This document shows positions 34,432-64,000 of a DNA stretch of 64,000 nt, one piece after another. The translations under genes and the position numbers were made by a program. The notes beneath the pieces were generated by a model. The model did not search any database, was not told the origin of the DNA, and worked only from the letters and a program-made list of their open reading frames with translations. The stretch is taken from positions 62,001 to 126,000 of the IMG/VR virus record IMGVR_UViG_3300020154_000003; one strand, given 5' to 3'. This stretch comes from a virus. Position 1 is the stretch's first letter, and every line of letters starts with the position of its first letter.

Positions 34432-34620
34432 ATGAATGTTAAAACAGTTGACGAAAAAATTATTGGCCTCACAATAGATGAGGCTAAAAAATTATGGGAT
34501 GATATTCGTGTTATAGAAATTGATGGAAATCAAACAGTAATAACAAGGAATTACGTTCTAATGAGAATGAATGTAAAAGTAAGAGACGGTAAAATTGTTG
34601 AGTTCGTCAACTTCGGATAA
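34432..34620 (+). CDS. I78-family-like peptidase inhibitor, 62 aa
   Basis: The ATG is one base past tRNA-Val. IIGLTIDEAKKLW, IRVIEIDGNQTVIT and YVLMRMNVKVRDGKI follow the pattern of potato-inhibitor-like I78 proteins (GxxxxEA, then the Arg-Val loop and RxN). It is cytoplasmic here, as there is no signal peptide. It may block a host protease. Confidence 0.6.
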   Translation: MNVKTVDEKIIGLTIDEAKKLWDDIRVIEIDGNQTVITRNYVLMRMNVKVRDGKIVEFVNFG

Positions 34621-51408: not shown

Positions 51409-51439
51409 ATTGCAAGTCTCGTATTTATGGTTACATTTG
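51409..51439 (+). promoter_or_regulatory. Bacteroidota-type promoter
   Basis: ATTG, 19 bases, TACATTTG, in front of the tiny 43-residue frame. Confidence 0.7.
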
Positions 51440-51454
51440 CAACGCATTAAAAAA

Positions 51455-51586
51455 ATGGAAAAACTAACGTCAAATATTAATCGATCAAACTGGTGTGGAA
51501 GTAATTCTATATCAGGGAATATTCTTGGCTCTACATTTAGAGGCACGAACGGGTTAATGTTTGATACAGATGGTGGAACACTGTAA
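51455..51586 (+). CDS. Tiny peptide, 43 aa
   Basis: Starts MEKLTSNINRSNWCGSNS; Asn/Gly/Ser-rich with one Cys. A promoter and terminator flank it. Function unknown. Confidence 0.42.
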   Translation: MEKLTSNINRSNWCGSNSISGNILGSTFRGTNGLMFDTDGGTL

Positions 51587-51610
51587 ATAGAAGAAAAAAT
51601 ATCAAACACT

Positions 51611-51638
51611 AACCCGACCCAAAAAGTCGGGTTTTTTT
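51611..51638 (+). terminator. Intrinsic terminator
   Basis: AACCCGAC-CCAAAAA-GTCGGGTT then TTTTT. Confidence 0.87.
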
Positions 51639-51646
51639 ATGTCTAT

Positions 51647-51740
51647 ACATCGGCATTCATTGGTGAGATAAGCAGTCTCCAAAACTGTGCGAAAGGAGTA
51701 ATTACTGAGTAGCTTGTGGGTTCGAATCCCACCCTTTGTG
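51647..51740 (+). tRNA. Degenerate tRNA-Trp(CCA) with a long variable arm
   Basis: Loop CTCCAAA on GCAGT/ACTGT and a perfect T-arm, but acceptor ACATCGG/CCTTTGT has only 5 of 7 pairs, the D-stem is poor and the variable region is 27 bases. A normal Trp tRNA is at 57149. It may be decaying. Confidence 0.45.
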
Positions 51741-51754
51741 CGAAAATAGTAAAT

Positions 51755-57148: not shown

Positions 57149-57220
57149 ACGGGTATCGTACAGTGGCTAGTATAGCGATCTCCAAAATCGTTGACGTGGG
57201 TTCGAATCCTACTACCCGTG
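57149..57220 (+). tRNA. tRNA-Trp(CCA)
   Basis: Loop CTCCAAA on GCGAT/ATCGT; acceptor ACGGGTA/TACCCGT; discriminator G. Its anticodon arm is nearly identical to that of the amber suppressor at 61540. Confidence 0.88.
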
Positions 57221-57236
57221 CAAGTTTTAATTTATT

Positions 57237-61392: not shown

Positions 61393-61464
61393 TGCAACAA
61401 AAATCAAAATAAGTCGTATAATTGCACATAGTCTTTCATCCAACCGGAATCCTAAATGTTCAAA

Positions 61465-61508
61465 CCGACTATTGGGCTATGACACAGGGAAGGTCGGCAC
61501 TCCTGTGT
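61465..61508 (+). other. Possible pseudoknot before the amber suppressor tRNA
   Basis: CCGACT (61465-61470) pairs with GGTCGG (61492-61497), and ACACAGGG (61482-61489) with TCCTGTGT (61501-61508). The stems interleave, so they form either a pseudoknot or a switch. A hairpin CAAGG-TGGAA-CCTTG follows at once. Confidence 0.45.
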
Positions 61509-61539
61509 ATTCAAGGTGGAACCTTGTGGAGGATTATAC

Positions 61540-61612
61540 GTCTTAGTAGCACAATTGGCGGTGCAACGATCTCTAAAATCGGAGGATGCGGGTTCGATCC
61601 CCGCCTAAGGCA
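61540..61612 (+). tRNA. Amber suppressor tRNA(CTA)
   Basis: Acceptor GTCTTAG/CTAAGGC, T-arm GCGGG/CCCGC and D-arm are normal. The loop is CTCTAAA, giving anticodon CUA, which reads UAG. Its anticodon arm CGATCTCTAAAATCG differs from that of tRNA-Trp (57149) by one base, so it may descend from Trp. The discriminator is A, so the charged amino acid is not certain (Gln, Trp or other). Confidence 0.9.
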
Positions 61613-61613
61613 C

Positions 61614-61797
61614 AAATAATTCTCCTGCTTGAAAGCCATACAACCACGAATATGACCTATTCGCTTGACAAAGACCAGTTCTGTTCCAGCAGTTAATGGT
61701 GGCCTAGGGATAAGATGAATCCATTAGGATGGAACCTCGTAAGAGTGATAAGAATTACGTCTTATTCCAATCTGGAAGTTGGACAGGAGAATTATTT
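61614..61797 (+). ncRNA. Structured RNA, 184 nt, closed by a perfect 14-bp stem
   Basis: AAATAATTCTCCTG and CAGGAGAATTATTT are exact complements at the two ends. Inside are CCTA(G)GGAT/ATCC(AT)TAGG, GAATA-TGACC-TATTC and AAGA/TCTT hairpins. No frame. It starts 2 bases past the suppressor tRNA, so it is probably cut from the same transcript. The class is unknown. Confidence 0.6.
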
Positions 61798-61844
61798 AAA
61801 TTGTATTGTTTTTTTGAAATGTAGTATTTACTTTTACTAAAATT

Positions 61845-61866
61845 CAGACCCTTAAGGTCTGGTTTT
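61845..61866 (+). terminator. Terminator after the structured RNA
   Basis: CAGACC-CTTAA-GGTCTG followed by GTTTTG. Confidence 0.65.
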
Positions 61867-61894: not shown

Positions 61895-62674
61895 ATGAAA
61901 GCAAAAAAAACTAAGAAAACTGCTAAAACCAGCACAAAAAGACCCGCCAAGAAGAAGCCTACCGCAAAAGCAAAAGCCTCATCAAAGACCAAAGCGAAAG
62001 CTAAGGTTAAATCCAAATTGGATTATACACACATAATCGCAGTACTGGACAAATCCAGTTCTATGCATTCAGTAGCGAATGCTGCCATGAAAGGTTTTAA
62101 TGAATTCCTGACATCACAAAAAGCCTTAAAAGGGAAAGCCACTATGGACGTGTTATTGTTCAGTAGTGCTGATAAAATCGACTATATCTCGCAGGGTGTT
62201 GACATCAGTGAGGTTGCTGAATTAACCTCTGAGACTTATCGTCCTCAGGGCACTACAGCATTATTCGATGCAATCGTGAAAGCCACTTCAACTTACAAAC
62301 TGAAGTATGATGAATTGAAGCCTTCAAAGAGACCCGATAAGATTTTGGTAATTGCTATTACTGATGGAGAAGAAAATAGCAGCACAGAATTTCCTATAAG
62401 TAAAGTTGGTGATGTCAAAGCATTGATCACAAAACGTAAGTCGGAAAACTGGCAGTTTATGTTCTTGTGCTCGACTGAAGATGCCGTGTTAACTGGCGAA
62501 TCTCTTGGAGTTTCAAGAGGTAACACAATGCAGTTTACCAATAGCGATCTTGGTAATCAAGCCATGTACTCTGCTGTGGCATCTGCTGCGACCATGTACA
62601 GATCGACTTCACTGAGAAGTAAGAGTTTTAGCAAGGTCAGCGATAATTTGCTGGCTGAGGATGATATTTCCTAA
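61895..62674 (+). CDS. VWA-domain protein with histone H1-like tail, 259 aa
   Basis: Residues 1-42 are almost only Lys, Ala, Thr, Pro and Ser (KKTAKTSTKRPAKKK...), like H1 or Hc1 tails that bind DNA. Residues 44-235 are a von Willebrand A domain with a MIDAS: AVLDKSSSMH, QGTTALFD and AITDGEENS. A DNA-bound, metal-dependent adaptor is suggested. Ends at a strong terminator. Confidence 0.82.
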   Translation: MKAKKTKKTAKTSTKRPAKKKPTAKAKASSKTKAKAKVKSKLDYTHIIAVLDKSSSMHSVANAAMKGFNEFLTSQKALKGKATMDVLLFSSADKIDYISQGVDISEVAELTSETYRPQGTTALFDAIVKATSTYKLKYDELKPSKRPDKILVIAITDGEENSSTEFPISKVGDVKALITKRKSENWQFMFLCSTEDAVLTGESLGVSRGNTMQFTNSDLGNQAMYSAVASAATMYRSTSLRSKSFSKVSDNLLAEDDIS

Positions 62675-63022: not shown

Positions 63023-63403
63023 ATGAAAAAAGAACTGTAGATTTCCAATCCTAGCGATCTTAAACTGGTAACCATTACCAGACAAGACCTACCAATGGGC
63101 GCAATCATTGCCCAAACAGTACATTCAACAGCATCATTTGCCATCCAGTACCCTGACAAATTTCGTCATTGGGAACAAACATCAAACTACGTAGCGTGTC
63201 TAGCTGCAAAGGATGAGCAAGAACTACTCAAGTATTACGACCGATTAATAAAGGCAGGAGCCGATGTGGTATTATTCCGTGAACCCGACATGGATAACCA
63301 AGCAACATCCCTATGCTTTTACGGCACTCCTGAGTTTCGGAAAATTACAAGCAGTTTACCATTAATGTTCAAGCAGAAGAAGGAGGTGGCTATGGCAGCA
63401 TAA
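63023..63403 (+). CDS. Peptidyl-tRNA hydrolase PTH2-type, with in-frame TAG at codon 6
   Basis: Reading from the ATG at 63023 gives MKKEL, TAG (63038-63040), then ISNPSDLKLVTITRQDLPMG and IIAQTVHSTASFAI, the PTH2 pattern with a strand, DLxMG and the QxxH helix. The core strand LVTITRQDLP lies before the internal ATG at 63095, so a start there would delete part of the fold. PTH2 frees tRNA from stalled peptides. Its own promoter precedes the first ATG. The TAG is probably read by the phage suppressor tRNA. Confidence 0.75.
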
Positions 63404-63677: not shown

Positions 63678-64000
63678 ATGAAAACAATTAGAGAAACAAG
63701 TCAACCAGTAATCGATGCTCTTTTGAAGCATGTCGATCTTTGTGATGATCATTAGATACTTGAACCTTCAGCAGGCTTCGGTAATCTTGCGGATGGAATC
63801 GTAAGAGCGTGTCCTGACATAAAAGTTGATTGTGTCGAATTGAATGAACGCAACGTACAAATTCTCAAGGAGAAAGGGCATAACGTAGTTGGTCGTGACT
63901 TCTTTCACTTCAAAACAGAAAAGAAGTACTGGTACATCATCGCAGCACCAAACTTCAAAGACAATATTGATGTCGAACACATCATGAAGATGTACACACA
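63678..64000 (+). CDS. DNA methyltransferase-like gene with in-frame TAG, 3' end outside window
   Basis: MKTIRETSQPVIDALLKHVD then TAG (63753-63755) then ILEPSAGFGNLADGIV, the SAM-binding motif of N6-adenine methyltransferases, DCVELNERNVQILK and IIAAPNF (NPPF-like, altered). The TAG lies one residue before the conserved ILEPSAG strand, where homologues have a residue, so the gene only makes sense with readthrough. Partial at the right edge. Confidence 0.7.

Follow-up and report, generated by a model that had tools for sequence, protein, structure and literature searches.

Theta ribozymes are HDV-like RNAs that occur mostly in Bacteroidota phages. They cleave where a phage tRNA has its 3′ end, and a fifth of these tRNAs are suppressors (PMC10879173). 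In phage T4, the non-tRNA RNAs rnaD (species 2) and rnaC (species 1) follow the last tRNA of the tRNA cluster at a distance of 1 nt. ROOL and GOLLD are phage RNAs of unknown function that are encoded near tRNA islands (PMC12286853). The purpose of phage suppressor tRNAs and the way in which they are switched on is an open question, and the study of the jumbo phage XacN1 did not identify a gene that is targeted by its CUA tRNAs (PMC5852040). The element described here may bear on this question, as an RNA that is physically attached to a suppressor tRNA would be a candidate point of control. That attached RNAs can act is known from theta ribozymes.

The window, i.e. the whole stretch of 64,000 nt that was analyzed, comprises bases 62001–126000 of a virus record of 366,038 bases. 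Among its genes are those for T4-type head proteins (major head, portal, terminase), relatives of which, with 71–80% identity, are present on many large IMG/VR contigs. ARAGORN predicted 52 tRNA genes in the window, and two tRNAs, at 61540 and 63586, have a CUA anticodon. Promoters of the form TTG-N17-21-TAnnTTTG were seen in the phage and its relatives and, by comparison with known Bacteroidota promoters, this form points to a Bacteroidota host. The 184-nt element lies directly behind the first of the two CUA tRNA genes. Both this abutment to an amber suppressor and a perfect 14-bp closing stem (AAATAATTCTCCTG / CAGGAGAATTATTT, 156 nt between the arms) had been noted in a first-pass annotation and were confirmed (Table 1).

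Table 1. Coordinates of the element, its neighbors, and the loci in other phages that were used for comparison (positions without a locus prefix refer to the window).
Feature	Position	Strand	Remark
Non-coding spacer before the CUA tRNA gene	61405..61539	+	43% GC; same intergenic block as the element
tRNA gene, anticodon CTA (amber suppressor)	61540..61613	+	ARAGORN; Rfam RF00005, 57.6 bits; BLAST matches to phage tRNA-Trp
Closing helix, 5′ arm	61614..61627	+	Abuts the tRNA gene end at 61613
Element interior	61628..61783	+	Predicted hairpins within chance, z −1.0; pair probabilities computed
Closing helix, 3′ arm	61784..61797	+	
Candidate Bacteroidota-type promoter for the VWA gene	61806..61836	+	TTG-N20-TACTTTTA, one mismatch to TAnnTTTG; similar promoters just before the VWA gene in relatives
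7-bp hairpin CAGACCCTTAAGGTCTG	61845..61861		Terminator-like on the minus strand only
VWA-domain-like protein gene	61895..62674	+	Downstream neighbor
Family X loci	L195:2967-3094, L198:3247-3377, L196:870-997(-), L193:4023-4150, L191, L192, L194, L188		
tmRNAs of relatives	L166:7508-7870, L167:4493-4854, L168:4440-4804, L171:5511-5873, L172:15920-16286(-), L173:6915-7280, L193:6474-6829		
pth2 loci compared	L227-L234, L236-L242, L245-L247		

The closing helix is the sole perfect 14-mer pair with a spacing of 60–300 nt in the whole window. At least one such pair was present in 8 of 60 dinucleotide-shuffled windows, and an equally strong helix was found at 3 of 320 random positions. Therefore, the helix is unusual in comparison to chance, but the case is not overwhelming. 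The whole element folds to −52.1 kcal/mol, with a z-score of −3.4 to −3.7. This signal stems from the closing helix, because the interior without the closing stem has a z-score of −1.0 (51 of 300 shuffles folded equally well), and each half of the element alone has a z-score of about −0.9. The several internal hairpins that had been proposed are thus within the range of chance. Several other stretches with an equal or better z-score were found in a scan of 13 kb. Ordinary coding DNA also yields a fold signal of this kind, because a coding ORF for 60 amino acids (34434–34619), which is located between two tRNA-Val genes and starts at the very end of one of them, has a z-score of −4.63 and a perfect 10-bp end-to-end closing helix. 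This is a caution against RNA calls from fold energy. According to PMC8250186, the fold of a single sequence is no evidence of a functional RNA.

The strongest long-range helices starting within 15 nt of tRNA 3′ ends were compared for 256 tRNAs of the phage and its relatives. The helix of the element ranked first, and the runner-up is located behind the Trp-type CUA tRNA of the relative G019. Because the three random positions mentioned above reach the same helix strength, the weight rests on the coincidence with the kind of tRNA, a coincidence that was spotted post hoc. The suppressor tRNA in front of the element is itself of the Trp type: its best database matches are tRNA-Trp (BLAST), and its anticodon arm (GATCTCTAAAATC) is one base off that of the tRNA-Trp at 57149–57221 (GATCTCCAAAATC). 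The CCA end is not encoded in its gene. The GC content of the element is 40%, versus 23% in the following 97 nt, and its composition is above that of neighboring spacers and genic rather than spacer-like. The element does not contain a long ORF, but the claim that it is free of any frame was not borne out, as an ATG-initiated ORF of 41 amino acids (61715–61840), which has no Pfam match, overlaps it.

Searches for relatives of the element were negative. BLAST and nhmmer did not detect a homologue in the 366-kb genome of the phage and up to 43 related jumbo-phage records, and none was found in annotated phages or plasmids. A single-sequence covariance model, which is a weak kind of model, retrieved nothing from 28 relatives, and exact scans of IMG/VR and GTDB with 16–20-mers yielded either no matches or unrelated coding ones. 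ACAACCACGAATATGA and comparable words gave short matches in relatives; these were discarded, as all of them are located in apparently protein-coding DNA. The intergenic block appears to be specific to the lineage of this phage, judged from a set of records that may lack those closest to its genome. Strict conservation of the closing pair had been taken as a sign of selection; this argument fails, as there is no homologue in anything that was searched, and two arms that pair perfectly in a single sequence do not amount to conservation. The first-pass annotation had left the element unclassified and had proposed an Rfam search. This description stands: a cmscan with the 4227 families of Rfam 15 (E up to 10) yielded no match to any family, 6S included, besides tRNA and chance matches. 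As a test for a decayed or divergent tRNA or tmRNA, the models RF00005, RF00023, and permuted tmRNA were compared with 61614–61797 and had no match inside it. Complete tmRNAs (RF00023, 69–112 bits), with tags that end in ELAIAA, ELAFAA, or similar, are present in the tRNA arrays of relatives (Table 1); ARAGORN predicted none in the genome of the phage itself.

The comparison with the known systems revealed similarities of position and differences of structure. With theta ribozymes, the element shares the location directly 3′ of a phage tRNA, which is often an amber suppressor, and, judging by the promoters, the occurrence in Bacteroidota phages. It starts at 61614, one nucleotide after the tRNA end at 61613, and thus lies inside the ±5-nt margin around a tRNA 3′ end within which theta ribozymes cleave, a similarity that concerns position only. 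In contrast, theta ribozymes have a length of about 55 nt and fold into a nested double pseudoknot. Like rnaC and rnaD of T4, the element has the same orientation as the adjacent tRNA and lies within a few nucleotides of it. However, rnaD and rnaC are 119 and 139 nt long and exhibit only chance-level word matches to the element, and rnaC ends with a T-arm-like hairpin that the element does not have. The two T4 RNAs also had no match in the Rfam scan. ROOL and GOLLD resemble the element in their location near tRNAs of phages, but they are much larger, are represented in Rfam, and do not match it.

A parallel was found in relatives of the phage. The RNA that follows the CUA tRNA of G019 is also closed by a helix but differs from the element; it is about 125 nt long and belongs to the family X (Table 1). 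Homologues are located behind Trp-type tRNAs in G018, G041, and G006 and, together with L193, five phages have X at a distance of 3–10 nt 3′ of a Trp-type tRNA. The phages with this arrangement are jumbo phages of the Bacteroidota type. Some X copies have no tRNA in front, and copies elsewhere are found a few tens of nucleotides before a start codon. Exact scans with the X core ACCCAAGAGCAATATCAGTTA revealed 12 loci in IMG/VR and none in GTDB genomes. In an alignment of eight diverse members, 88% of the cells pair and 13 of 31 pairs are changed on both sides, and the covariation score was reached by none of 500 shuffles. X has no match in Rfam. Its covariance model matched in 5 of 40 relatives, and neither in the tRNA region of the window nor in the rest of the phage genome. 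Membership of the element in X was rejected, as the eight-member model R2 had no match in 61614–61797 (E up to 10, filters off). Both are helix-closed and lie directly 3′ of a Trp-type tRNA, and one of the X tRNAs is an amber suppressor, but X differs in length and has the conserved core GCAGGU ... ACUGAGG ... ACCCAAGAGCAAUAUCAGUUA. It is evident from family X that this group of phages does contain helix-closed RNAs attached to Trp-type tRNAs; the element itself is outside X. In the relative G015, a helix-closed candidate RNA of 106 nt with long closing arms and no Rfam match is located directly upstream of an X copy (L204:1387-1492).

The spacer upstream of the suppressor tRNA contains an imperfect inverted repeat of 13 nt (61410–61422/61533–61545), the 3′ arm of which enters the acceptor strand of the tRNA. 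The fold of the spacer is within chance (z −1.1). A pseudoknot is conceivable between CCGAC and the GUCGG of the loop that ACACAGG/CCUGUGU encloses. The idea that the spacer and the element, which share GGNTGGAACCT, form one family was dismissed, as they cannot be aligned and the genome has no further copy. A promoter scan did not reveal a recognizable promoter upstream of the CUA tRNA at 61540. On the other side of the element, a T-run is present at about 61808–61815. A downstream terminator had been claimed; the terminator scan did not call one on the plus strand, and the 7-bp hairpin qualifies on the minus strand only.

We tentatively prefer the explanation, to which we give somewhat less than an even chance, that the element is a lineage-specific helix-sealed RNA that is transcribed with the suppressor tRNA and is released by cutting at the tRNA 3′ end. 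It would form the 3′ portion of the transcript of the Trp-type amber suppressor. Because CCA is not encoded, the 3′ end of the tRNA is likely cut by an RNase Z-type activity after the discriminator base. A domain of about 184 nt would remain, with both ends clamped by the 14-bp helix. The freed domain might persist as an independent stable RNA, comparable to those of the T4 tRNA cluster, or serve as a trailer that determines the maturation rate of the suppressor tRNA. This explanation is favored by the top rank of the helix among the 256 tRNA 3′ ends, by a runner-up that is also behind a Trp-type amber tRNA and belongs to the covarying family X, by the precedent of rnaD and rnaC, by the genic composition, and by the candidate promoter that separates the element from the VWA gene. 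It is weakened by the insignificant fold of the interior, by the lack of a homologue and thus of covariation, by the position outside X, by the lack of a recognizable promoter upstream of the tRNA and of a clear terminator, and by the better z-score of the coding ORF at 34434–34619. Furthermore, no such helix exists behind seven other amber tRNAs of relatives, and the general notion that amber tRNAs carry a 3′ RNA was dropped for this reason; the second amber tRNA of the phage is also without a helix and is directly followed by coding sequence. The main rival is that a chance inverted repeat without any function as an RNA lies in an ordinary non-coding spacer and that the fold follows from a single fortuitous 14-mer. 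The shuffled windows and random positions with helices of this quality, the z-score of the interior, the coding ORF with the same kind of signal, and the lack of conservation argue for chance, and the exact abutment to the tRNA 3′ end, the composition, and the parallel RNA X at the same place argue against it, so that we regard it as unlikely but as a serious possibility. Even a mere chance repeat would be a useful warning that one strong helix alone gives a high z-score. The earlier designation as a structured RNA is plausible by the closing helix, the position, the composition, and the parallel with X, but its fold significance is reduced to one helix.

That the element acts in cis as a leader that controls expression of the VWA gene, either as a riboswitch or as an attenuator, would agree with the start codon of this gene, which follows 97 nt past the element on the same strand, and with the hairpin in between. 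However, the promoter candidate is located between the element and the gene, as in relatives, where VWA homologues adjoin tRNA arrays in 16 cases, none of which has the element. The conserved spacers between tRNA array and VWA gene in relatives consist of promoters and terminators, and the element is absent, which makes a leader improbable. The position, the host phylum, and the kind of tRNA would also fit a self-cleaving ribozyme that generates the tRNA 3′ end like theta (PMC10879173). A home-made descriptor of the HDV-like nested double pseudoknot (P1/P2/P3 with the catalytic C before the 3′ strand of P2) found none in the registers 61606 to 61640; applied to all tRNAs, it matched 12 of 246 versus 22 of 1230 shuffled sequences, and the matches were mostly implausible. 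The helix is simply nested and no Rfam ribozyme matches, and thus a ribozyme, which might then be of a new class, is distinctly improbable. The length of 184 bp, the perfect 14-bp ends, and the adjoining tRNA gene are reminiscent of a small MITE-like mobile element bounded by terminal inverted repeats, but a single copy in the 366-kb genome, no copies in relatives, and flanks in which no clear target-site duplication could be read make this very improbable. The first-pass annotation had compared the element with 6S RNA, and a 6S-like decoy for RNA polymerase would agree with the size of roughly 180 nt and the long closing stem only. No 6S family matches, the interior is devoid of significant structure, and no central bubble is supported, so that the probability of such a decoy seems next to negligible.

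A possible target of the suppressor tRNAs is located downstream. The gene for a peptidyl-tRNA hydrolase, pth2 (63023–63403), begins with MKKEL[TAG]ISNPSDLKLVTITRQDL, with the TAG at 63038–63040, and no ATG, GTG, or TTG follows the TAG before the conserved first strand is reached. A TAG at codon 3–6 of pth2 was found in all eight pth2-bearing relatives, seven of which have a CUA tRNA. Start-proximal TAG codons are also present in pth2 of the huge phages LR745206, LR756500, LR756501, LR756504, LR756502, and LR756511 and of the Tenacibaculum phage pT24. In the mycobacteriophages Myrna, Cane17, and BadAgartude, pth2 begins with GTG-TAG-GTG or ATG-TAG-GTG and is annotated from the second codon. The amber codon is absent in the Stenotrophomonas phage RAS14 and in Lak-A1; altogether, 19 of 21 phages examined have it right after the start. 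A full-text search, which is weak evidence due to its partial coverage, found no report of it in the literature. Because the codon after the TAG is always ATA, ATT, or GTN, suppression and re-initiation are both possible, and the sequences suggest either gating by the amber suppressor or autoregulation by a minigene or re-initiation. The pth2 amber codon could supply the suppressor tRNAs with a target and is possibly more important than the element. It is a long shot that both belong together, i.e. that a class of helix-sealed RNA domains on Trp-type (suppressor) tRNAs of large Bacteroidota phages sets the level of mature amber suppressor and thereby gates the amber-interrupted pth2 1.2 kb downstream of the element.

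Two further observations were made in the window. An N6-methyltransferase-like ORF (63678–64000), directly behind the second CUA tRNA, contains an in-frame TAG at 63753–63755 just before the motif ILEPSAGFGNLADG. Upstream of a tRNA array, the region 51410–51640 contains a promoter, a leader ORF of 43 amino acids with 6 Asn, and an antiterminator-like hairpin that overlaps a strong terminator, and it looks like an attenuator. The first called tRNA of the array downstream is a tRNA-Asn, and ARAGORN may have overlooked a Trp-like tRNA at about 51655–51745.
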